A DNA stretch of 44,558 nucleotides from Hyphomicrobium sp. (GTDB lineage Bacteria; Pseudomonadota; Alphaproteobacteria; Rhizobiales; Hyphomicrobiaceae). Position numbers and translations under genes: made by a program. Positions 33,186 to 44,558 of the stretch are shown piece by piece; the stretch's first letter is position 1; the number at the start of each line of letters is the position of its first letter. The DNA lies in assembly GCA_022841965.1 (NCBI GenBank), contig JALHQM010000013.1:19845-64402 (forward strand). Direction: 5' to 3'. Below the pieces are notes generated by a model that was given only the letters and a program-made list of their open reading frames with translations, was not told the DNA's origin and ran no database searches.

Positions 33186-33506
33186 ATGTCGGGATTTTGG
33201 AATTGGGGGCGCTCGACTGAGGGTGGCGCGGGTCTTTTCCCGGCGTCGCTTGAAGCTGCGGCTTTGTCCGATTGGATTAGGGCGCGGAAGTCCAACCTCC
33301 CGCAAACGCGACTGGGGCGGACGCTGCTTGGCCTTGTTTTGGTGTTCGGCGGTGTGTTGAGCTTTTTGCCGGTGCTGGGCATTTGGATGCTGCCGCTCGG
33401 CCTTGTAATCCTCTCCGTCGACTGGGCTTTTGTGCGACGGCGGCGGCGGCAGGCGGATGTGAAGTTCACGCGCTGGTGGAAGTCGCGGCAGGCGGCGCGT
33501 GCCTAA
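33186..33506 (+). CDS. small membrane protein, PGPGW-like
   Basis: A 106-residue protein with two close hydrophobic helices near its middle (TLLGLVLVFGGVLSFL and a second containing GIWMLPLGLVILSVDWAF), then a basic tail rich in Arg and Lys. The pattern LPVLGIWMLPLGL resembles the PGPGW putative transmembrane family, whose function is unknown; the match is tentative. The ATG at 33186 has a strong GGAGGGG site. The frame is open to 33066 without protein-like sequence. Its TAA overlaps the stop of the convergent allophanate hydrolase gene. Confidence 0.72.
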   Translation: MSGFWNWGRSTEGGAGLFPASLEAAALSDWIRARKSNLPQTRLGRTLLGLVLVFGGVLSFLPVLGIWMLPLGLVILSVDWAFVRRRRRQADVKFTRWWKSRQAARA

Positions 33507-35284
33507 GCGCGCTTCGATGCCAGCCACGCGCGCCAGCCGCCGTGCCGGGTGATGTCTTCGGCTCCTTGGATTGCGTGGCTTTCGCACAGGAAGCCTTTGG
33601 AGAGTGAACCGTCGGCGAGTTTGACGGTGCCGATGCCGAGAGGCGGCGGGATGAGCGCCACAAACGAGCCAAAGGCGGCGTCGTCCATATCCCAGATTTC
33701 GACCTCGATGTTGCCCGAACCTTTGCCGTCGCAGATGAGTCCGGGTTTTGACGGTGTCGTATTGGCCAGAGCATAGAAGCTGTAGCCGGGAGCCGTGCGG
33801 GTGGTGCGGACGAGGCGTGCGTTGCGTTCGATGAGTTGCGTGTTGAGCGGTTGACCCGTGAGGTGGGCGCCGACGACGGCGACCTGGATGCGCTTTGATG
33901 GTGTCGTGGGAATCGCGGGTGTGGATGCCAGAGGGAGCGATGTTGCGCCAAGTTTGATTTCGCCGAGAGAGCGATGGAGGGCGTCCCCAAGTACGGCGAG
34001 GCGTTTGTCATCGAAGGCGCGGCCCAGGACCGTGACGCCAACGGGGAGCCCGTTTTGGCGGAAGCCCGCAGGCACGGCGACGGCGGAGAGGTCCATGAGA
34101 TTGACGAAGTTTGTGTAGAGGCCAAGGTTTGAATTGAGGCGGATGGGATCGGCGAGAACCTCCGATGTTTTGTACGTCGTGGGTGTTGTCGGCAGGATCA
34201 TCGTGTCCATCTTTGCCCATTCTGCTTGCGCGCCGCGCGTCAGTCCGGCGAGGCGGTAGAGGCCTTGAAAAGCGTCGGCGGCTGTGATTTTTTCAGCGCC
34301 GAGAATGATACCGCGGACGACCTCTTGAATGGCGTTAGGCTTTTGGGCAGCAAACTCCTTGATGGCAGCTAAGCGTTCGGCGACCCAGGGGCCTTGGTAG
34401 AGGAGGTTTGCGGCTTCGCGGAAGGGTGTGAAATCGAAGGAAACGATTTCGCAGTCAAGCCCGCGCAGACGTTCGACGGCGAGGCCGTAGAGGCGCTCGG
34501 ATTCGGTATCCCCACAGAACTCGAGAGGGCATGAGGGCACACCAACGCGCAGGCCTTTGGGGAGGGGTTCGTAGGTGCTGAGTGGTTGTGTGCGGGCGTA
34601 GCTGTCTTCTGCGTCAAAGCTCGCGGTGATGTCAAAGACGCGCGCCACATCGGCGGTGGTGAGAGCGAAGATCGAGACCGTGTCTTGGGTGCGGCAGGCG
34701 GGGACAACGCCGCGCGCGCTCAAAAGGCCCTTGGTTGGTTTTAGGCCGACGATATTGTTGAACGCGGCAGGCACGCGGCCTGAGCCGGCTGTGTCGGTGC
34801 CGAGTGCGAATGAGACGAGGCCGCCGGCGACCGCGACGGCGGAGCCGGAACTTGAGCCGCCGGAGATGTAGTCGGCATCAAAGACGCTTGAGGGAATGCC
34901 GTAGGGCGAGCGCGTGCCGACGAGGCCGGTGGCGAACTGATCGAGGTTCGTTTTGCCGATGAGGATTGCGCCAGCGGCTTCCAGCCTTTCTACGACGCTG
35001 GCTGAGCGGGTTGGCGTGTATGCGAATTCGGGGCAGGCGCAGGTGGTGGGGAGACCCGCGACGTCGATGTTGTCTTTGACGGCGAAGGGGATGCCCCAAA
35101 GCGGACCCTTGGGGGCAGATTTTAGTTTGGCGAGAGCCGTGGCGCGCGCAACGAGTGTGATCCACACAGGGCGTTCGCCTTCGACGGTGATGCGATTGTA
35201 AATGCAGGTGAGGACGGCTTCGGGTGTCAGCGTGCCAGTGGCGTAGGCTTGCGTCAGGGTTGCGATGTCGAGGGAGACAATCAT
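33503..35284 (-). CDS. atzF: allophanate hydrolase (AtzF-type)
   Basis: Hydrolyses allophanate to ammonia and CO2, the last step of urea or guanidine breakdown by the carboxylase route. The 593-residue product has an amidase-signature domain: Lys70 in PFAVKDNID, the GGSSSGS cluster near residues 143-148, and nucleophile Ser168 in GTDTAGSGR. A C-terminal allophanate hydrolase domain (about 440-593) follows. The start at 35284 overlaps the carboxylase stop (ATGA), so the two are translationally coupled; the frame extends 21 codons further but not usefully. It is the last gene of the operon. Confidence 0.94.
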   Translation of the reverse strand: MIVSLDIATLTQAYATGTLTPEAVLTCIYNRITVEGERPVWITLVARATALAKLKSAPKGPLWGIPFAVKDNIDVAGLPTTCACPEFAYTPTRSASVVERLEAAGAILIGKTNLDQFATGLVGTRSPYGIPSSVFDADYISGGSSSGSAVAVAGGLVSFALGTDTAGSGRVPAAFNNIVGLKPTKGLLSARGVVPACRTQDTVSIFALTTADVARVFDITASFDAEDSYARTQPLSTYEPLPKGLRVGVPSCPLEFCGDTESERLYGLAVERLRGLDCEIVSFDFTPFREAANLLYQGPWVAERLAAIKEFAAQKPNAIQEVVRGIILGAEKITAADAFQGLYRLAGLTRGAQAEWAKMDTMILPTTPTTYKTSEVLADPIRLNSNLGLYTNFVNLMDLSAVAVPAGFRQNGLPVGVTVLGRAFDDKRLAVLGDALHRSLGEIKLGATSLPLASTPAIPTTPSKRIQVAVVGAHLTGQPLNTQLIERNARLVRTTRTAPGYSFYALANTTPSKPGLICDGKGSGNIEVEIWDMDDAAFGSFVALIPPPLGIGTVKLADGSLSKGFLCESHAIQGAEDITRHGGWRAWLASKRA

Positions 35285-38200
35285 GCTGCGTCCTCTGCAA
35301 TAACGACGAGCGTCTGGCCGAGAGAGACAGGGCGGCCTTCGGTGCATTTCAGTTCATGCACGATGCCGCTGCCGGAAGCGTGGACTTCCATTTCCATTTT
35401 CATCGATTCCACAATCACGAGGACATCACCCGCTGCAACGCGCTGGCCGTGCTCGACGGCAATTTTCCAGACTGCTCCGGGGACTGGACTTTGAACGGCG
35501 GTGTGGCCGGGGGCGAGGGCGTCATCGCCGGTATTGGCTGCGCCGACATCGTTGAGCACAACTCCGGTGCGATCGCTGTCTTGCCAGCGGGCGCGTTCGG
35601 CTTCGAAGGCGGATTGCTGGGTTGCTTTGAATTCACTGATCGCAGTTGCATTGTCGTTGAGGAACTTTCGGTAGCTCGACAGCGAAAACGTCGTTTCTTC
35701 GATTTTTATGCCAGTCTTGCCTTGCAGGAAGCCGTCGCGGAAGGCCAGGAGATCGCCGCCGGAGACGTCATAAAAGCGTATCTGATCGAAGAAGCGGAGC
35801 AGCCAAGGTTTGCCCTTTTCGAATTCGCGCGTGACGTGGAAGCGATTCCAGACTTGCGCGGTGCGGCCGACGAATTGATAGCCGCCGGGGCCTTCCATGC
35901 CATAGACGCACATGTAGGCGCCGCCGATGCCAACGGCATTTTCTGGCGTCCAGGTGCGGGCGGGATTGTATTTTGTGGTGACGAGGCGGTGGCGCGGGTC
36001 GACGGGCGTGGCGACGGGTGCGCCGAGGTAGACGTCTCCGAGGCCGAGCACCAGGTAATTCGCGTCATGGACGATACGTTTCACGTCGGCGATGCTGGGA
36101 AGCCCGTTGATGCGGCGGATGAACTCGATGTTCGATGGGCACCAGGGCGCATCGGCGCGGACCGATTGCATGTATTTGTCGATAGCGAGCTGTGTTTGGG
36201 GATCATCCCAAGAGAGTGGCATGTGGACGACGCGCGATGGCACCTCGATGTCGCCGATGTCGCCCATGCCGTCTTCAATTTCGGAGAGAGTTGCGAGCAG
36301 CTTGGTGAGCGGCAGCGTCCGGCTGTCGTAATGGACCTGGAGGGAGCGTATTCCCGGCGTTAGGTCGAGGATGCCGGGGAGGTTCGTTACCTCTAAGCGC
36401 GTCATGAGCACATGAACGCGGAAGCGCAATTCCAGGTCGAGAACGAGATCGCCGTATTCGACGAGGAGATACTTGTCGCCAGCGCGGCGTGCGACGACGC
36501 GGGGAAGGCTGTTTTTTGCTTCGCGCACTGCGACGATGCAGTCGTCGGTGCCGAGCAAGACGGGCTCTGCAACTGCGACGACGGGGGCCGGGCTTAGCTG
36601 TTCAATCTCCGCGTTCTGGATCGCTTCGCGCGTGGCTGCATCTTGCGGCGTTAGACGGACGAAGCGGACCTTGTCGCCGGGTCGAAGCTGGCCGAGTTTC
36701 CAGAGTTCGGCTGCGACGATGGTGGCGGGACAGACGAAGCCGCCGAGTGAGGGTCCGTCGGGGCCCAGGATGACGGGCATATCGCCGGTGAAATCGATGG
36801 CGCCAATCGCATAGGCATTGTCGTGGATGTTGCTGGGATGGAGCCCCGCTTCGCCGCCATCGCGGCGGGCCCATTGGGGCTTGGGGCCGATGAGGCGGAC
36901 GCCGGTCGGGTTGGAATTGTAGTGAACTTCCCAATCGGTGCCGAAGAACATGGCGATGTCTTCGGGGGTGAAGAAATCCGGCGCGCCATGGGGGCCATAG
37001 AGCACGCCGATCTCCCAGCGGTGAGCCATGAGCGGGCGCAGAGCGAGGGGCAGCTGAGATGTGAGCGTGGTCGATGGTGGTTCAGCCGCGTAGGGGGCGT
37101 TGACGTGCAGAATGTCGCCGGGCAAAAGGGCGCGGCCGCCGTGGCCGCCGAATTTGCCGAGCGTGAATGTCGACGCGCTGCCGAGATAGAGCGGCACATC
37201 GAAGCCGCCGCGCACGGCGAGGTAGGCGCGTGCTCCGGCGCCAGAGACGGTGCCGATTTTGAGCGTGGCGCCGGCGTTGACGGGTACGGGTTGCCACATC
37301 GGGATCGATGCGCCGTCGAGAGTGGCGGAGATGGCTGCTCCCGTGATGGCGATCACGGCAGCGGTGTTGAATTTGAGGGTGGGTCCAGTGAGCGTGATTT
37401 CGAGGCCGGGCGCGCCTTCGGCGTTGCCTGCGAGTTTGTTGGCGTAGCGGAAGGAGAGGTGGTCCATGGGACCGGATGGGGGCACACCGACGGCCCAATA
37501 GCCGGTGCGGCCCGGCCAATCCTGAATGGTCGATTGCGTTCCGGGGGCGAGGACTTCGATGGTAGGCGCGTTGTAGGGAACGGTGGCCAGCGTACTGGTC
37601 AGCATGTTGCCTCTGGCGAGGATTTCGGACGCGGCGAGCTGGCGCAGATAGTCGAGGTTGGTTTCCAAGCCACCAATGTGGGTTCCGGCGAGGGCCTTTT
37701 GCATCTTTGAAAGCGCTTCATCGCGCGTTGCACCGCGCACGATGATCTTGGCAATCATGGGATCATAGAACGGCGAGACCTCAGCTCCGCTTTCGACCCA
37801 GGTTTCGATGCGCGCATCGGGGGGCCAAGCGACGTGCGTGAGGAGTCCGGCGCTGGGGCGGAAATCGCGGCCGGGGTCTTCCGCGTAAAGGCGCACTTGG
37901 ATGGACGCGCCGCAGGGGGCGATTTTCGATTGGTCGAGGGGCGGGCACACGCCAGCTGCCTGCCGGATCATCCATTCGACGAGATCAACGCCGGTGACTT
38001 CTTCGGTGACGCCGTGTTCGACCTGGAGGCGGGTGTTCACTTCGAGGAAGTAGAACGCATCGGTGTCATTGTCATAGAGAAATTCGACGGTACCGGCGCT
38101 GGCGTAGTTGACCGATTTGCCGAGCGCAATAGCGGTGTTCCAGAGTTCTTTGCGGGTTGTGTCCGAAAGCCCGGGCGCGGGGGTTTCTTCGATGACTTTT

Positions 38201-38910
38201 TGGTTGCGGCGCTGGGCGGAGCAATCGCGCTCGCCTAAGGCCACGACGTTGCCTTTGCCGTCGCCGAAGAGCTGGACTTCGATGTGGCGGCCGCGCGCGA
38301 CGTATTTTTCGAGGAAGAGGCCGGCGTCCTTGAAGTTGTTGCGGGCGAGGCGCTCGACGCGCTCGTACATCGGCGCGAGGTCGTCTTCACTGGCTATGAG
38401 CTGCAACCCGATACCGCCGCCGCCGGCTGTGCTTTTCAACATAACGGGATAGCCGATGCGTTGGGCTTCCGTGCGGGCGTGTTCGAGATCGCTGATGAGG
38501 CCGGAGCCCGGTGCGAGGGGAACGCCGGCTGCGAGCGCTAACTCGCGTGCCTTATGTTTCAAGCCGAATGCGCGCATCTGATCAGGTGTGGGTCCGATGA
38601 AGGCGATGCCGGCTGTGGCGCAGCTTTCGGCGAAGTCGGGGTTCTCGGAGAGAAAGCCGTAGCCGGGATGGATGGCTTCGGCGCCGGTTTCGCGGGCCAC
38701 CTCCAAGATGCGATCGACGTTGAGATAGCTTTGCGCGGCAGCGGCGGGGCCGATGCATACCGCCTCAGTGGCGAGCGCGACATGGCGCGAATGGCGGTCG
38801 GGCTCGGAATAGACAGCGACGCTGGCGATGCCCATTTTGTCGAGTGTGCGAATGATGCGGCAAGCGATGGCGCCGCGATTGGCGATGAGAACTTTTTTGA
38901 ACATGCTCAT
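35281..38910 (-). CDS. biotin-dependent urea/guanidine carboxylase
   Basis: A 1209-residue multidomain carboxylase. In order: biotin carboxylase (about 1-450, starting [20 protein letters not shown], with [11 protein letters not shown] in the ATP loop), a KipA/AHS2-like domain (about 475-780, [16 protein letters not shown]), a KipI/AHS1-like domain (about 800-1010), and a biotinyl carrier domain with Lys1171 in ESMKMEME. This matches the fused enzyme called urea carboxylase. Related enzymes found with DUF1989 proteins and a guanidine riboswitch are guanidine carboxylases. Both features are present here (riboswitch at 40351-40396), so carboxylation of guanidine with bicarbonate and ATP is the likelier reaction. 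The discriminating residue could not be aligned by eye. It overlaps its neighbours by ATGA at both ends. Confidence 0.93.
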
Positions 38911-39554
38911 GCGCCGGCATCCCAGATCAGCACCTCGACCGGGGTCGGGTTATAGGCGTTGCAGGGATTGTTGAGCTGCGGGCAGTTGGAGATCAGCACG
39001 ATGACGTCCATCTCCGCGCGCATCTCGACGTACTTGCCGGGAGCGGAGAGGCCGTCGGCGAACGTGAGGCCACCTTCGGCGGTGACGGGGACGTTCATGA
39101 AGAAATTGATGTTGTGGGCGATGTCGCGCTTATCGAGCCCGTAGTGTTCGTTCTCGGCGACGGCCAGGAGGAAGCTGTCGCGGCAAGCGTGCATGGCGAA
39201 TTTTTCAAGCGCGTAGCGGACGGTGTTGCTCTCCGTGGCGCAGGCGCCGCCGAGAGTGTCGTGACGCCCGACGGTGTCGGCCGTGACGGTGAGCATGGGG
39301 CGGCAGAAGTCGGAGAGGAGAACGGTTCCAGAAGTGAGGAACACGTTGCCCTGCTCGCGGATGGTGTCGCAGGCGGAGTAGCGCTCATGGGGATCATCGG
39401 CGTTGAAGAAGAGCGTGTCGGCGGCCTGATTGCCTTCCAGGTCGAGGATGCGGAACGTTTCGCCCTTTTTGACGATGTGCATCCAGTAGTCGCCCGCGGG
39501 GACGACCTTACGGTAGCTCGCGGTGTCGGCGGCGAGGTGGCTTTCCTTGATCAT
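38907..39554 (-). CDS. cgdB: DUF1989 protein, carboxyguanidine deiminase subunit (urea carboxylase-associated protein 2)
   Basis: One of two paralogous DUF1989 proteins that precede the carboxylase. Such pairs form carboxyguanidine deiminase, which converts carboxyguanidine to allophanate and ammonia, between the carboxylase and AtzF steps. The 215 residues contain the family pattern [53 protein letters not shown] and a C-terminal [24 protein letters not shown] with conserved Cys residues for a metal site. It starts 14 bp after the partner gene and overlaps the carboxylase start by ATGA. The symbol follows published usage, but which subunit is A or B is from memory. Confidence 0.88.
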
Positions 39555-39568
39555 GTATCCGCCCTCCC

Positions 39569-40300
39569 TCAGTGACAGCCGCAGGCGTGGAACAGCCGAT
39601 TATTTTCAAATCCGCGGCCGTTTTCTGGGGCGGAAAGGCGGCATGGGTCATCGTCTGATGCGGCGGGTCCGTCAAAGAGTTTGAAGCGGATCGTTTTCTT
39701 CGGGTATTGCGGCGCGGGATCGAGCGGGTGCGGGCAGGTGTGGAAGAGAACAAGGGTATCCATCTCGAAGCGGAGTTCGACGGAGGCACCGGCGTTTGCT
39801 GCGGACGCATCGAAGGCAATGACGCCGGTTTCATCGACGGCGACTTTGCTGAACCAATTGACGTTGGCTGCCAGATCGCGGCGCTTCATGCCGTATTTGG
39901 CGAGTTCCACGAGGAAGCTGTCGAGGCCATTCTGGTGCCAGTCGTTGCGGTGGGTCTGGTAGGTGGCTTCGCCCCACGACTTTTCGACGATCGCCTTAGT
40001 TGAGTTGCCGCAGACGGTGTCGTGCCAACCGTGGGTGTCGCTGACGATGGAACAGAAAATGCGGCCCATATCGGAGTAGAGGCAGTGGCCGGTGGTGAGG
40101 CGGAAGGTGTGCTGGCACTTCAAGGTGTCGGGCGCGTTGTAACGCTCGGTGAGGTTTTGTGGATTGTAAAACAGCATGGCCACGTTGGCGCCGCCGTCGA
40201 GATCGGTGAGGCACAGGCGCGTGTTGCGGCGGACGATGAAGGACCAGTGTTTGCCGGAGGCCAGCGTATCGGAGTGGATCAGGGCGGACGTGGAAGTCAT
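39569..40300 (-). CDS. cgdA: DUF1989 protein, carboxyguanidine deiminase subunit (urea carboxylase-associated protein 1)
   Basis: First gene after the riboswitch. The 243-residue product is a DUF1989 protein: [51 protein letters not shown], and the C-terminal [15 protein letters not shown] with the Cys pattern of the family. It ends in HACGCH. It is the partner of the DUF1989 protein at 38907-39554 and would act with it on carboxyguanidine. The ATG at 40300 has GAGGGA upstream (complement of 40310-40315), which can also pair with part of the riboswitch. The frame continues to 40672 through the riboswitch, so the shorter start is certain on functional grounds. Confidence 0.88.
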
Positions 40301-40350
40301 GGCGGCATTTCCCTCGGGCTTGGCCGCATGTGACGCGCGGCGCAGGTCGT

Positions 40351-40396
40351 CCGGGCCGTCCCGGGATTGGAAGTGACCGGAGCGGGGCCGTCCCCG
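40351..40396 (-). ncRNA. guanidine-II (mini-ykkC) riboswitch
   Basis: On the transcribed strand two hairpins follow each other: CGGGG-ACGG-CCCCG (complement of 40383-40396) and CCGGG-ACGG-CCCGG (complement of 40351-40364), 18 nt apart. Twin 5-bp stems with identical ACGR tetraloops and a linker of this length are the definition of mini-ykkC, the guanidine-II riboswitch. It lies 50 bp upstream of the first DUF1989 gene. TCCCGGG (complement of 40360-40366), the start of hairpin 2, can pair with the CCCGAGGGA stretch containing the ribosome-binding site (complement of 40310-40318). Guanidine binding would therefore free the site and switch translation on. Confidence 0.88.
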
Positions 40397-40412
40397 TCCG
40401 AAAAGATGTGGA

Positions 40413-41222
40413 CTAGTGGACGGCGGCGGAGACGTCAGCTGCGATAAGGGGTGGGGCTTCTTCAACGAGAGCGCTGCCGTTCTGTTTCTTTTTCTGTGTC
40501 TTTGGCGGCCAGACCGCAATGTCGTGGGCGATGGTGGCGCCGTAGCGTTCCTTCTCCTCGGGGCGGTTGCGGCGGCGTTCGAGCGCGATGACGCGGGTGC
40601 CCAGGCGGAAGGCTTCGGAGAGATCGTGCGTGACCATGACGACGGTGATGCCCTGTTCGACCCAGAGTTCATTCATGAGGGCGTGGACTTCGGCGCGGAT
40701 GCCGGGGTCGAGTGCGCCAAAGGGTTCATCGAGGAGGAGGACTTTGGGTTTGCGCATGAGAGCCTGGGCGAGGGCTAATCTTTGCTGCATCCCGCCGGAG
40801 AGGGCGGCGGGATATTTGTTTTCGTGGTCGGAGAGGCCAACGGCGTTGAGCAGTGCGCGGGCGTCGTCGATGGCGGCTGCTCGGTTGATGCCGAAGAGGC
40901 GGCCGAGGACGCGGGATTTTTCAAACTCGCGGCCGACGAGGACGTTGCCGAGAACGGTGAGGTGAGGGAAGACCGAGTAGCGCTGGAAGACCACGCCGCG
41001 GTCCCAATCTGGCTCGGGCTTGAGCGGCATGCCGTCGAGCAATATGCGTCCGCTGGTGGGGCGTTCTTCGCCGAGCAACATCTTGAGCAAGGTGGTCTTG
41101 CCGCAACCAGAGGGGCCAACGAGGGCGACGAATGAGCCGCTTTCGATCGTGAGGTCGATGTTTTCCAGAACGATCTGGTCGCCGTACTCTTTCCAGATCT
41201 TTTCAAGCACGACCGTTGTCAT
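40413..41222 (-). CDS. ABC transporter ATP-binding protein (NitT/TauT type)
   Basis: ATPase of the operon's importer, 269 residues. Walker A is GPSGCGKTT, the Q-loop follows at VVFQRYSVFPHLTVLGNV, the signature is LSGGMQQRLALAQAL, Walker B is VLLLDEPFGALD, and the H-loop is VTHD. The closest general type is SsuB/TauB/NrtD, as expected with the permease. The ATG at 41222 overlaps the permease stop (ATGA). A C-terminal extension of about 45 residues is Lys/Pro-rich and of no known use. The riboswitch begins 17 bp after its stop codon. Confidence 0.93.
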   Translation of the reverse strand: MTTVVLEKIWKEYGDQIVLENIDLTIESGSFVALVGPSGCGKTTLLKMLLGEERPTSGRILLDGMPLKPEPDWDRGVVFQRYSVFPHLTVLGNVLVGREFEKSRVLGRLFGINRAAAIDDARALLNAVGLSDHENKYPAALSGGMQQRLALAQALMRKPKVLLLDEPFGALDPGIRAEVHALMNELWVEQGITVVMVTHDLSEAFRLGTRVIALERRRNRPEEKERYGATIAHDIAVWPPKTQKKKQNGSALVEEAPPLIAADVSAAVH

Positions 41223-42037
41223 GATTTCTGCTCCGGCTGGAACCAGGGAAAGAGGCGGCGTTGCAGCATCGCGAGTGTCAGATCCATCAACCATGCGAGC
41301 AGCGTGATCCACAGCACGTAAGGGATGATGACGTCCATGGAGAGGAAGCGACGCACGAGGAAGATGCGGTAGCCGAGCCCACTGACGGCGGCGATGGCTT
41401 CGGCGGAGACGAGGAAGATCCAGGCGGGGATGAGCGCGAAGCGGGTCGCGACGATGAGCTTCGGCAGGATCTGGGGCAGAACGACGCGGGTAATCATCTG
41501 CCAGGTGGAGGCGCCGAGCGTTTGCGCCTTGACGATCATCTCGCGCGGGATTTCTTCCACGCCGAGGGCGACGGCGCGCAGCATGAGCGGGGCGGTGCCG
41601 ACGGCGATGAGGGTGATTTTCGAGGCTTCGTCCAGGCCAACCATGATGAACAGTATCGGCAGGATGGTGATGGGCGGGATCAGCGAGAAGGCTTCGACGA
41701 AGGGCTTCACCAACGCGCGGACGAAGGGGATGAAACCGGACGTGACGCCGAGGATCAGGGCAATGGCGATTGAAATGCCCATGCCGCTGCCGAGGCGCCA
41801 TAGGCTGATGGCTGTATCGGACCAGAAGAGATAGCTGCCAGTGCGCTTATCCTGGACGAACATGAGTTCGTTCATGGCGGCCATCATTTGCGTGACGGAC
41901 GGTAGGATCTTATCGGCGGGATTGATGCTCAGGCGCTGATAGCTACCGATCGCGTAGGTGACGGCGAGCGCGATGAAGGGGAGTGTCGCGAGCAGAATGT
42001 AGAGGCCGCGACTCGGATGCCGGTTGATGATGCGCAT
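41219..42037 (-). CDS. ABC transporter permease (NitT/TauT type)
   Basis: Inner-membrane permease of 272 residues with about six helices and the EAA loop (GVEEIPREMIVKAQTLGASTWQMITRVVLPQ) that contacts the ATPase. This is the SsuC/TauC/NrtB family, which imports small nitrogen or sulfur compounds. It overlaps the upstream gene by one base (TGATG) and the ATPase gene by four. The association with guanidine genes suggests guanidine or a guanidino compound as substrate; the substrate itself cannot be read from the sequence. Confidence 0.93.
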   Translation of the reverse strand: MRIINRHPSRGLYILLATLPFIALAVTYAIGSYQRLSINPADKILPSVTQMMAAMNELMFVQDKRTGSYLFWSDTAISLWRLGSGMGISIAIALILGVTSGFIPFVRALVKPFVEAFSLIPPITILPILFIMVGLDEASKITLIAVGTAPLMLRAVALGVEEIPREMIVKAQTLGASTWQMITRVVLPQILPKLIVATRFALIPAWIFLVSAEAIAAVSGLGYRIFLVRRFLSMDVIIPYVLWITLLAWLMDLTLAMLQRRLFPWFQPEQKS

Positions 42038-42987
42038 CAGGCGACCTTCCGTTCTTGTGATGCCGTGACGGGATCGAGAAGCGTATCGGCTTCGCGTTGG
42101 AGCCAGGCGAGGCGATCGGGCGCGATGGGTGTGGACTGGCTGAAGGCGACGTTGGGTTCGAGGCTATCGATGCGCCAGTGGCGCTGGGCGATGCCGGGTT
42201 CGCCGTAGATTGTTTCGTGGAGTGTGCCGGGTTCGCGGCCGGGACTTAAGGGGCCGGTCAGTGGGACGAGCGCTCCTTCGCGGCGTGGGTCGGTGGAAGC
42301 GGTGATGCGCCAGAGATCGTCTTCGCGGATCATGTAGTCGGTGACGCATTGGAAGACGCGCTCGAGAGCGGATGCGGGATCGCTGCTGCTGGCCACGAAA
42401 TCCTGGCAGCGCGTTCCGTCAGGGAGTTCGTGATAGCGGCCGAGTGTGCGGATGGCATGATCACCGGCGACGACGAGTCCGCCTGACCGCGGATAGGTGT
42501 CGTCTTTGGTGTCGGTCTCCTTTTCTAGACGCAGGCCCGCGAGTACGCCGGGGGCGCTTGCCAGAAAGCGCCAGTCTTCGACGTAAGCGCCGGAGGGCGC
42601 GAACTCGATCATGCAGTCGCCGATGCGGCGCATGAGGCCGGGCTCTGGGTATTTGTCGTAGGGTTGGAAGCCGGTCCAATCCGCCCAGGACATGACGGGG
42701 TCGGCCCACGATGTGGACGCGATGCCGCCTTCGACGCTGGCGAGTCGGCTGAGGGTTTCGCGGTCGAGGTTGGTAAGATCGGTGCCGGGTGTCAGTTGTG
42801 GGCGGGCTGGATGGATGCGGATGTCTCCCGTCATGCCGTGCGCTTGCACCCAGAAGACGCGGGTTTGTGCATCTTCAATGCCGGTTGCGAACGTGATCGA
42901 GCGCCGCTGGACGCAGCCGATCGCCCACTCGGGGACTCGGAGGGTGTTCGTTTGCAGGAGTGTGGCGGCGACTTCGGCAAGCGTCAT
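42037..42987 (-). CDS. conserved unknown protein of the guanidine operon
   Basis: I do not recognise this family. The 316-residue product starts at 42987, overlapping the oxygenase stop (ATGA), and ends one base into the permease gene, so it is firmly part of the operon. It has no signal peptide or membrane segment. Notable stretches are ASVEGGIASTSWADPVMSW, WTGFQPYDKYPEPGLMRRIG, IEFAPSGAYVEDWRF and SGGLVVAGDHAIRTLG. These read as strands of a lipocalin-like or similar barrel that would bind a small molecule. It may be a partner of the oxygenase or a binding protein for its product. Its tight coupling to both the oxygenase and the permease is the only functional evidence. Confidence 0.8.
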   Translation of the reverse strand: MTLAEVAATLLQTNTLRVPEWAIGCVQRRSITFATGIEDAQTRVFWVQAHGMTGDIRIHPARPQLTPGTDLTNLDRETLSRLASVEGGIASTSWADPVMSWADWTGFQPYDKYPEPGLMRRIGDCMIEFAPSGAYVEDWRFLASAPGVLAGLRLEKETDTKDDTYPRSGGLVVAGDHAIRTLGRYHELPDGTRCQDFVASSSDPASALERVFQCVTDYMIREDDLWRITASTDPRREGALVPLTGPLSPGREPGTLHETIYGEPGIAQRHWRIDSLEPNVAFSQSTPIAPDRLAWLQREADTLLDPVTASQERKVA

Positions 42988-44030
42988 CGCGTGCCGCTCG
43001 CGTGGATGGCTTCCTGGCCGAAGCTTGAGAGTTTGCGTGCGCCTTCGGGCAGAATGAAGGTGCCGTCTGCAATGCGGTTTTTCAGGTATTGGAAGGTTTG
43101 CGCGGTTTGCGCGAGGAGGTGATCGCCTGCCACAAGGGGTTCGAACTTCGGCTTTTCTCCGGCGGGGACGAACTGCGGAAGGGGTTTGACAACGGTGTGG
43201 TAATCGCAGGCGGCGAAGTAGGGGAACGAGTAGCGCTCTTCCTTGACTTTGCGGACGCGGTGGGAGGTGGCGACGAAGGTGGCGTTGGTCCAGGCTTCCA
43301 GCATGTCGCCGATGTTGATGATGAATCCGCCTTCGATCGGCGGGGCGTCGATCCATTCGCCCGCGCCGTTCATGACTTCGAGACCGGGGGCTGTCGGCCA
43401 GAGGATCGTGAAGCACTCGTAGTCGGTGTGGGCTCCGATGCCGGGTTCGTCGGCGGGGGCGGTGGGGGCGTAGGGGTAGTGGATGAGGCGAAGCTGGCTC
43501 GGCGGTTTTTTGAGGAAGGTGTCGAAGTAGGTCTCAGGCAGTTCGAGGGCTAGCGCAAAACCGCGAAAGAGGGTGCGGGCGAGGGCTGCAATGTCGGTGT
43601 AGTAGGCGCTGACGGCTGACTTGAATTCGGCGTCGTCGGGCCATTGGACGGGGCCCAGCATCGGCGTCTTACCCGACAGCACGTCGGGATCGTCCTCTGG
43701 GATGTCCAGGGATACGTCGAAAGCTTCCTTGCGGTCGGGCTTTTGGCCGTAAAAGACCTCTTCGCCGGGCGGAACGTAGCCCGAATGTGATTTGGAAAGA
43801 CCGATGTAGGCCTTCATCTTGTCTTCGGTGGACCTTGCGAAGAAGGCCTTGGTGGCAGCTAAAAGCCGGTCGCGGGTTTCGTCTTTGATCGGGTGGCCGA
43901 CGATATAAAGGAACCCGCTATCGCGCGAGGCCGCGCCGATCGCGTCCGCGACGCGTTGGCGTTCCTTTCCATCGGCCGAATAGAGGCCACTCACATCAAC
44001 GATCGGGAGGGCGGTGAAGTTGGAAGGCAT
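42984..44030 (-). CDS. 2-oxoglutarate/Fe(II)-dependent oxygenase, isopenicillin N synthase-like
   Basis: A cytoplasmic non-haem iron oxygenase of 348 residues. The iron ligands are His201, Asp203 (HTDYECFTIL) and His257, and the 2-oxoglutarate-binding Arg266-Tyr-Ser follows. The N-terminal LPIVDVSGLYSADG and GFLYIVGHPI are the usual DIOX_N region. The ATG at 44030 has GAGG upstream (another Met at 44042). Relatives act on amino acids and many other substrates; some hydroxylate guanidino compounds such as homoarginine and release guanidine. Its place in this operon suggests that it makes guanidine from an imported precursor, which is an inference. Confidence 0.9.
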   Translation of the reverse strand: MPSNFTALPIVDVSGLYSADGKERQRVADAIGAASRDSGFLYIVGHPIKDETRDRLLAATKAFFARSTEDKMKAYIGLSKSHSGYVPPGEEVFYGQKPDRKEAFDVSLDIPEDDPDVLSGKTPMLGPVQWPDDAEFKSAVSAYYTDIAALARTLFRGFALALELPETYFDTFLKKPPSQLRLIHYPYAPTAPADEPGIGAHTDYECFTILWPTAPGLEVMNGAGEWIDAPPIEGGFIINIGDMLEAWTNATFVATSHRVRKVKEERYSFPYFAACDYHTVVKPLPQFVPAGEKPKFEPLVAGDHLLAQTAQTFQYLKNRIADGTFILPEGARKLSSFGQEAIHASGTR

Positions 44031-44064
44031 GGCGGACCTCATGCTGTGCCAAGAACTTGGGTCC

Positions 44065-44099: not shown

Positions 44100-44558
44100 C
44101 TAGAGTTTGCCGTCGGCTGCCATCTTCTTGAACTCGGCCGTGAAGCGGAGCTTGATGTTGTCTTTCGAGCCCAGCACCGTGCCGTCGGCGAACTCGATGC
44201 CGATGTCATCGACGCTCTTGGCGCCCTGACCGTAGAGGCCCTTGTCGAACGAGAACTTGCGCACGTAGTCGAAGCGCTCGGTGTTCTTGGGATCGGCCAG
44301 GAATTCGACGGCTTCCTTGGGCGTCACGAAGAGCTTGGTGGTGGCGAGCTGGGCGTCGAAACCGGCCAGATCCGTGCCCGATGCTTTGCCCATCGATTCA
44401 CGCGCCGCCTTGCCCGCGTCGCCTTGGTCGTATGTCACGCCGATGACTTCGAACCACGCACCCGTCATGGCCTTTCCGAAGTCGGGGTTCTCTTTCAGCA
44501 TCGCCGTATTGGTGATCATCGCGTCGACGATTTCGCCGGGGAATTTCTCCGACGTGAT
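44100..44558 (-). CDS. ABC transporter substrate-binding protein (partial, C-terminal part)
   Basis: C-terminal 152 residues of a NitT/TauT-type periplasmic binding protein, cut by the right edge. The visible part begins ITSEKFPGEIVDAMITNTAM, with the family-like FGKAMTGAWFEVIGV segment, and ends in LRFTAEFKKMAADGKL. The reading frame is open to the edge, and the Met at 44519 is not the start. With the permease and ATPase it completes an importer. The binding pocket, which would show the ligand, is outside the window or incomplete. Confidence 0.85.
   Translation of the reverse strand: MTSEKFPGEIVDAMITNTAMLKENPDFGKAMTGAWFEVIGVTYDQGDAGKAARESMGKASGTDLAGFDAQLATTKLFVTPKEAVEFLADPKNTERFDYVRKFSFDKGLYGQGAKSVDDIGIEFADGTVLGSKDNIKLRFTAEFKKMAADGKL

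Follow-up and report, generated by a model that had tools for sequence, protein, structure and literature searches.

A guanidine-II riboswitch before the first DUF1989 gene of a Hyphomicrobium operon probably controls translation of the guanidine degradation genes

We analyzed a stretch of DNA of 44,558 nucleotides from Hyphomicrobium sp. (hereafter the window) and, judging by its sequence, the element at 40351–40399 is a genuine guanidine-II (mini-ykkC) riboswitch and an ordinary member of its class. The element lies inside an operon of the Hyphomicrobium type for guanidine uptake and degradation, and it very probably controls the translation of the four genes cgdA, cgdB, gca, and atzF. Our confidence in translational control as the explanation was lowered to that level because of the results of folding and shuffling reported below. 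The riboswitch class itself is known; the locus shows a modest positional variation, namely a guanidine-II element before cgdA, which adds a clade with an internal guanidine-II before the deiminase genes and not before the carboxylase gene. The analysis also confirmed the reading of a 49-nt regulatory RNA from raw sequence.

Identification of the guanidine-II element

An earlier note, made from the letters of the window, had assigned two hairpins in the operon to the mini-ykkC class and named a search with the Rfam model as the check. That search gave a significant match of 44.0 bits (gathering score 32) over the full length of RF01068, covering model positions 1–48 of 48 at 40399–40351, with E-values of 1.3e-5 when the whole window was searched and 3.4e-6 for an 11.6-kb stretch; the class assignment was thereby borne out. 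The sequence likewise confirmed two 5-bp hairpins with identical ACGG loops 18 nt apart, and the position on the transcribed strand, after the transporter genes and before the DUF1989 pair, was supported, with 50 nt from hairpin 2 to the ATG of the first DUF1989 gene at 40300. The span given earlier, 40351–40396, holds the hairpin cores but falls 3 nt short at the 5′ edge, as the match reaches 40399. Read on the minus strand, the element is GGACGGGGACGGCCCCGCTC-linker-CCGGGACGGCCCGG, and it resembles the guanidine-II class in its two ACGR-loop hairpins, its short linker, and its place in a leader of guanidine genes. A genome search with RF01068, in which 150 of 593 first-look candidates were scored, found no further match above the cut-off, so that the riboswitch match was the sole one found. 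Moreover, the pattern GGGACGRCCC-N8-35-GGGACGRCCC occurred once in the window and in none of 100 dinucleotide shuffles.

Transcription of the minus strand passes, in order, through the genes of a substrate-binding protein (partial), a 2-oxoglutarate (2OG)/Fe(II) oxygenase, a protein without a Pfam or NCBIfam match, an ABC permease, and an ABC ATPase, and then, after a 112-nt intergenic region, through those of UAAP1, UAAP2, the carboxylase, and the allophanate hydrolase (Table 1). The riboswitch is separated from the stop codon of the ATPase gene by 13 nt, and the last four genes, which follow it directly, are carboxylase-pathway genes according to their family profile matches. The UAAP1 and UAAP2 genes are candidate cgd genes, named by analogy with PMC12508155, and the gene context suggests guanidine as the substrate of the carboxylase. 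In named records, the nearest relatives of the DUF1989 proteins were from Hyphomicrobium metagenome-assembled genomes (MAGs), the top one being 92% identical.

In a scan of 40280–40800, no sigma-70-type promoter was found, and the transcribed (minus) strand held nothing resembling a terminator, the two terminator-like matches both lying on the other strand. Attenuation by an intrinsic terminator at the riboswitch site was rejected on this ground, and the lack of such a site on the minus strand of this interval fits translational control.

Table 1. Coordinates of the operon genes, the riboswitch and its parts, and the Azospirillum double leaders, with the basis of each assignment
Feature	Coordinates	Strand	Basis and remarks
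Substrate-binding protein of transporter	44100..44558	(-)	TIGR03427 positions 179-328 of 328; truncated by contig end
2-oxoglutarate/Fe(II) oxygenase, candidate methylguanidine hydroxylase (MgdH-like)	42984..44042	(-)	PF14226, PF03171; synteny
Candidate N-(hydroxymethyl)guanidine lyase (MgdL-like)	42037..42987	(-)	Without Pfam or NCBIfam match; adjoins 2OG oxygenase gene
ABC transporter permease	41219..42037	(-)	PF00528
ABC transporter ATPase	40413..41222	(-)	PF00005; start inferred
Guanidine-II (mini-ykkC) riboswitch aptamer	40351..40399	(-)	RF01068 44.0 bits, gathering 32
Hairpin P1 core, loop ACGG, CGGGG-ACGG-CCCCG	40383..40396	(-)	Sequence; pair counts
Candidate anti-Shine-Dalgarno, linker CACUUCC	40369..40375	(-)	Pairs with 40312-40306, probability ~0.3; without support from swap or shuffle tests
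Hairpin P2, loop ACGG, CCGGG-ACGG-CCCGG	40351..40364	(-)	Sequence; pair counts
Shine-Dalgarno-like GAGGGA of first DUF1989 gene	40310..40315	(-)	Sequence
UAAP1/DUF1989, carboxyguanidine deiminase subunit (cgdA-like)	39569..40300	(-)	TIGR03425 328.7 bits, PF09347
UAAP2/DUF1989, second subunit (cgdB-like)	38907..39554	(-)	TIGR03424 337.5 bits, PF09347
Urea/guanidine carboxylase (gca-like)	35281..38910	(-)	TIGR02712 urea carboxylase 1886.5 bits
Allophanate hydrolase (atzF-like)	33503..35284	(-)	TIGR02713 795 bits; start inferred
Azospirillum double leaders	L074:7709-7965, L077:7706-7965, L079:7707-7966, L080:7706-7965, L076:2368-2624		Before UAAP1

Conservation of the element among relatives

Matches of the RF01068 type at an E-value of 0.01 or better were present in 21 of the 60 genomes of a relatives search, own genome counted, and all five genomes of the same genus carried the element. 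To evaluate covariation, the window was aligned with the 18 relatives above the Rfam cut-off, three weaker matches being left out. With kinship uncontrolled and the alignment rows picked by a structure model, standard pairs made up 93.1% of alignment cells, the covariation score of 0.527 was equalled in 0 of 500 shuffles, and the count of 41 cells in which both partners of a pair had changed was likewise reached in 0 of 500. Counted by pairs, 9 of 13 showed such two-sided change; this number was reached in 32 of 500 shuffles and is hence the weaker measure.

Leaders were compared in a set of 24, comprising that of the window and those of 23 loci with an element at the ATPase/UAAP1 boundary; the one other such locus, L081, with its start codon ~12 nt past P2, was excluded from this set and from the alignment A2. 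The ACG of both loops was unchanged in 19/19 and 24/24 aligned rows, and the two innermost pairs of P1 and all five pairs of P2 were invariant in the 24 leaders. In leaders of the Hyphomicrobium type, variation was confined to P1 and P2 was constant. The invariance of the loops and of these seven pairs, together with the retention of the element in all five congeners, argues against a relic aptamer, whose hairpins would have been kept after regulation had gone with the loss of masking in this clade; the weak pairing between linker and Shine-Dalgarno (SD) sequence in the window and its congeners, described below, speaks for such a relic, which we regard as extremely improbable.

Proposed masking of the cgdA ribosome site

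In published accounts, guanidine-II riboswitches turn translation ON as guanidinium drives the kissing of two ACGR loops, with the linker as a putative anti-SD sequence (PMC9094411, PMC12186494). The ligand, the kissing, and the ON direction that we assign to the window element are carried over from this class, and an ON switch at the level of translation is plausible. In the absence of guanidine, the ribosome site of cgdA would be masked at least in part, and the inter-hairpin linker is the likeliest agent. When guanidine is present, one guanidinium would be bound per ACGG loop and the loops would kiss; the kissing loops would tie up the linker, leaving the ribosome site free and increasing translation.

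What is described for the class makes masking by the linker the likeliest mechanism; the masking helix in the window sequence itself is computed and weak. CACUUCC (40375–40369) may pair with GGAAAUG (40312–40306) in a way compatible with both hairpins, at a predicted probability of ~0.3. The mean pairing probability of the SD hexamer with the linker exceeded 0.6 in 12 of the 24 leaders and was only 0.00–0.37 in the window and five congeners; the SD in this comparison was the best AGGAGG match, which in the window fell on CCGAGG, and the window-specific figures for GAGGGA are therefore preferred. Only two linkers (L070 and L083) performed better than 95% of their own shuffles among the 24 leaders. 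Swapping of linkers was not significantly worse, either among the 24 leaders (1793 of 10000 permutations) or among nine non-redundant ones (591 of 10000 permutations).

The earlier note had placed the masking elsewhere, in a pairing of the TCCCGGG stretch of hairpin 2 with the ribosome-binding site. Under such a mechanism the 5′ arm of P2 (UCCCGGG) would pair with CCCGAGGGA around the SD sequence, and guanidine would restore P2. The complement is indeed present, and its duplex of -9.7 kcal/mol comes near the -10.1 of the linker; the P2 arm was the stronger duplex in three of the 24 leaders (L054, L064, and L065). In the folded window leader, however, UCCC:GGGA had a probability of ~0.0015, against ~0.3 for the linker pairing, and the GGG:CCC extension one of ~0.137. 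The best structure holding the P2-arm pairing reached -37.3. Lower energies were obtained for the linker helix together with both P1 and P2 (-40.2) and for the free minimum (-41.4). Furthermore, the CCCG partner was absent in all five congeners (L051–L055), and the mean pairing of the SD hexamer with the hairpin-2 segment was at most 0.07 in 24/24 leaders. Given the folded-leader probability, masking by the P2 arm is not supported, and we consider it very unlikely.

The free minimum of -41.4 corresponds to neither of these pairings and places the SD sequence and the start codon inside a local hairpin, CAUGCGGC/GCCGCCAUG, which is compatible with both aptamer hairpins and does not involve the linker. 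This hairpin, which belongs to the lowest-energy fold computed for the window leader, could itself mask the ribosome site, in which case the aptamer would act beyond secondary structure or have no effect. The same structure and energy were obtained with P1 and P2 enforced, so that the hairpin as folded is uncoupled from the aptamer, and L051 and L052 lack the same downstream partner; masking of this kind appears unlikely.

The spacer between P2 and the SD sequence was also analyzed. A third hairpin in this spacer had a z-score below -1.5 relative to dinucleotide shuffles in 14 of the 24 leaders and in 7 of the nine non-redundant ones, a feature of many relatives that departs from the guanidine-II class and is unsupported in the window (z -0.1); in the five congeners the values ranged from -0.6 to 0.4. 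RNAalifold on the MAFFT alignment A2, in which the spacer is poorly aligned, returned P1 and P2 only. Stable extra spacer hairpins, unlike one another in sequence, were seen in L056, L057, L060, L066, L068, L069, L070, L071, and L083.

Position of guanidine-II in related operons

A model, R1, was built from the window plus the 18 relatives that exceeded the Rfam cut-off, and 96 sources were searched with it. Among 80 loci around UAAP1 relatives (L051–L130, the best 80 of 101), 38 had an R1 match at E 0.01 or better. The element stood at the ATPase/UAAP1 boundary in 24 of these and at the UAAP2/carboxylase boundary in 12, with one of the other two before UAAP1 without a preceding transporter gene (an Azospirillum) and one elsewhere. 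Seven further loci of the 80 had R1 matches up to E 0.051 and 35 had none at that level. These counts rest on rough R1 E-values and admit only matches with E up to 0.051, with L076, L121, L073, L122, L094, L128, and L129 among the loci counted as negative and second matches in L077, L080, and L119 omitted. Seven of the 24 (L051–L055, L066, and L070) apparently come from genomes used in R1 and match by construction.

With the Rfam model, RF01068 scored above the gathering score in all 16 of the ATPase/UAAP1 loci scanned (16 of 24). It was found in six of the nine UAAP2/carboxylase loci scanned out of 12 (L082, L097, L100, L102, L105, and L107) and not in the other three (L085, L096, and L098). 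Record titles assign the 24 loci to Hyphomicrobium, Hyphomicrobiaceae, Methyloceanibacter, and MAGs labelled simply Proteobacteria, and the 12 to eleven gammaproteobacteria and one Sideroxydans MAG. Which of the two gene boundaries the internal switch occupies therefore varies with lineage, and the window-type position is two genes earlier than the pre-carboxylase position. The distance from P2 to the start codon also differs, being 41–55 nt in the 24 leaders versus 12–26 nt (tblastn start) in the 12 pre-carboxylase loci. In the literature searched, we found no earlier description of an internal guanidine-II before cgdA and no paper treating Hyphomicrobium together with a guanidine riboswitch.

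An operon with guanidine-I at its head and an internal guanidine-II has already been published for Vreelandella boliviensis, where guanidine-II is reported to follow cgdB and precede gca, and mgdH/mgdL to stand between gca and atzF (PMC12508155). The window operon shares with it the genes of the transporter, cgdA/B, gca, and atzF, a 2OG oxygenase accompanied by a hypothetical protein, and the internal guanidine-II, and relatives of the window share the guanidine-I head. It differs in that guanidine-II lies before cgdA rather than between cgdB and gca, and in that the 2OG pair lies between the binding-protein and permease genes, upstream of guanidine-II. In the operons of Raoultella, Klebsiella, and Erwinia, as described in PMC12186494, guanidine-I similarly serves the importer part and guanidine-II the downstream part; unlike in the window, where the deaminase genes fall in the guanidine-II part, theirs are in the guanidine-I part.

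Guanidine-I at the operon head in relatives

RF00442 (guanidine-I) was found at the operon head in 16 of 16 ATPase/UAAP1 loci scanned (of 24), ~3 kb before guanidine-II, or 5 kb before it where the oxygenase pair was present. In the scanned relatives it lies ahead of the expected start of the binding-protein gene, and 11 of 13 gammaproteobacterial loci scanned had it as well. The window's own genome, which is 88.8% complete and whose contig ends inside the first operon gene, gave no RF00442 match; by analogy with the relatives, a guanidine-I element probably precedes the window operon beyond the contig end. The guanidine-I results make it unlikely that, as previously suggested, guanidine controls the degradative half on its own through the internal element, since guanidine-I heads the same operon in 16/16 relatives scanned. 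Guanidine-II is thus probably not the sole control and adds a second gate: guanidine-I at the head would probably set transcription of all genes first. Two unrelated aptamers for one small ligand would then stand in series, making transcriptional and translational control separable.

The candidate methylguanidine gene pair and the ligand

The oxygenase and its family-less partner at 42037–44042 (-) are candidates, by analogy, for the MgdH/MgdL methylguanidine demethylation pair, which has been described from a halophile (PMC12508155). In a phylum sample of 398 genomes, 13 held relatives of the MgdL-like partner, the window's genome and one congener being among them. A 2OG oxygenase gene lay within ~250 nt of the partner gene in nine other regions, namely seven fetched of the remaining 11 genomes, L075, and a Novosphingobium plasmid; the two genes are convergent in L152. 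In three of the nine regions (L131, L147, and L151), the fetched stretches held no carboxylase gene. As a separate observation, a guanidine-II-like element lies seemingly directly before the oxygenase/partner pair at L147:7955-8006 (R1 E 0.00094), and weaker elements of this kind were seen at L148:8280-8317 (R1 E 0.026) and L146:11132-11170 (R1 E 0.04).

The candidate mgdH and mgdL genes within the window operon raise the question of the ligand. In-line probing in Vreelandella is reported to have given apparent KDs of 44 uM for guanidine on guanidine-I and, on the internal guanidine-II, of 93 uM for guanidine and 83 uM for methylguanidine (PMC12508155), so that the latter element binds both about equally. 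The effective signals of guanidine-II in an operon with MgdH/MgdL-like genes might accordingly include methylguanidine. Here, however, the oxygenase pair lies upstream of guanidine-II, and its translation would therefore not be directly under guanidine-II; we regard methylguanidine as a somewhat doubtful additional signal.

A possible mobile second gate and the Azospirillum double leaders

We tentatively propose, as a reading that falls a little short of an even chance, that the Hyphomicrobium-type operon is split between two sensors, and at an uncommon place. Guanidine-I would govern transcription of uptake and methylguanidine demethylation, and guanidine-II would form a second gate on the four degradation genes, acting on translation and possibly tolerant of methylguanidine. 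This gate would be mobile in evolution, standing before cgdA in Hyphomicrobiaceae, before gca in gamma- and betaproteobacteria, and joined to guanidine-I in one leader in some Azospirillum.

Five Azospirillum loci (L074, L076, L077, L079, and L080) had guanidine-I followed 71–75 nt later by two ACGR hairpins, whereas L072 and L073, also Azospirillum, had guanidine-I without the ACGR pair. The pair has a 36-nt linker, with room for a further hairpin, and lies 19–20 nt from the UAAP1 start in the four loci measured. Four of the loci were scanned at the gathering threshold of RF01068, and in each the pair scored below it; L076 gave no RF01068 match up to E 0.1. The insert-type pattern was present in 8 of 45 genomes of the Azospirillum group, judged from matched strings, versus 7 of 45 for a reversed control pattern, so that the insert pattern alone is unspecific; the guanidine-I neighbour was examined in the five loci. 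Average per-column identity among the eight insert strings is 91%, which makes their conservation weak evidence. A 2022 survey of tandem riboswitches states that none was found for any class of guanidine riboswitch (PMC9481103). With both aptamers in a single 5′ region, the Azospirillum leaders would depart from that result.
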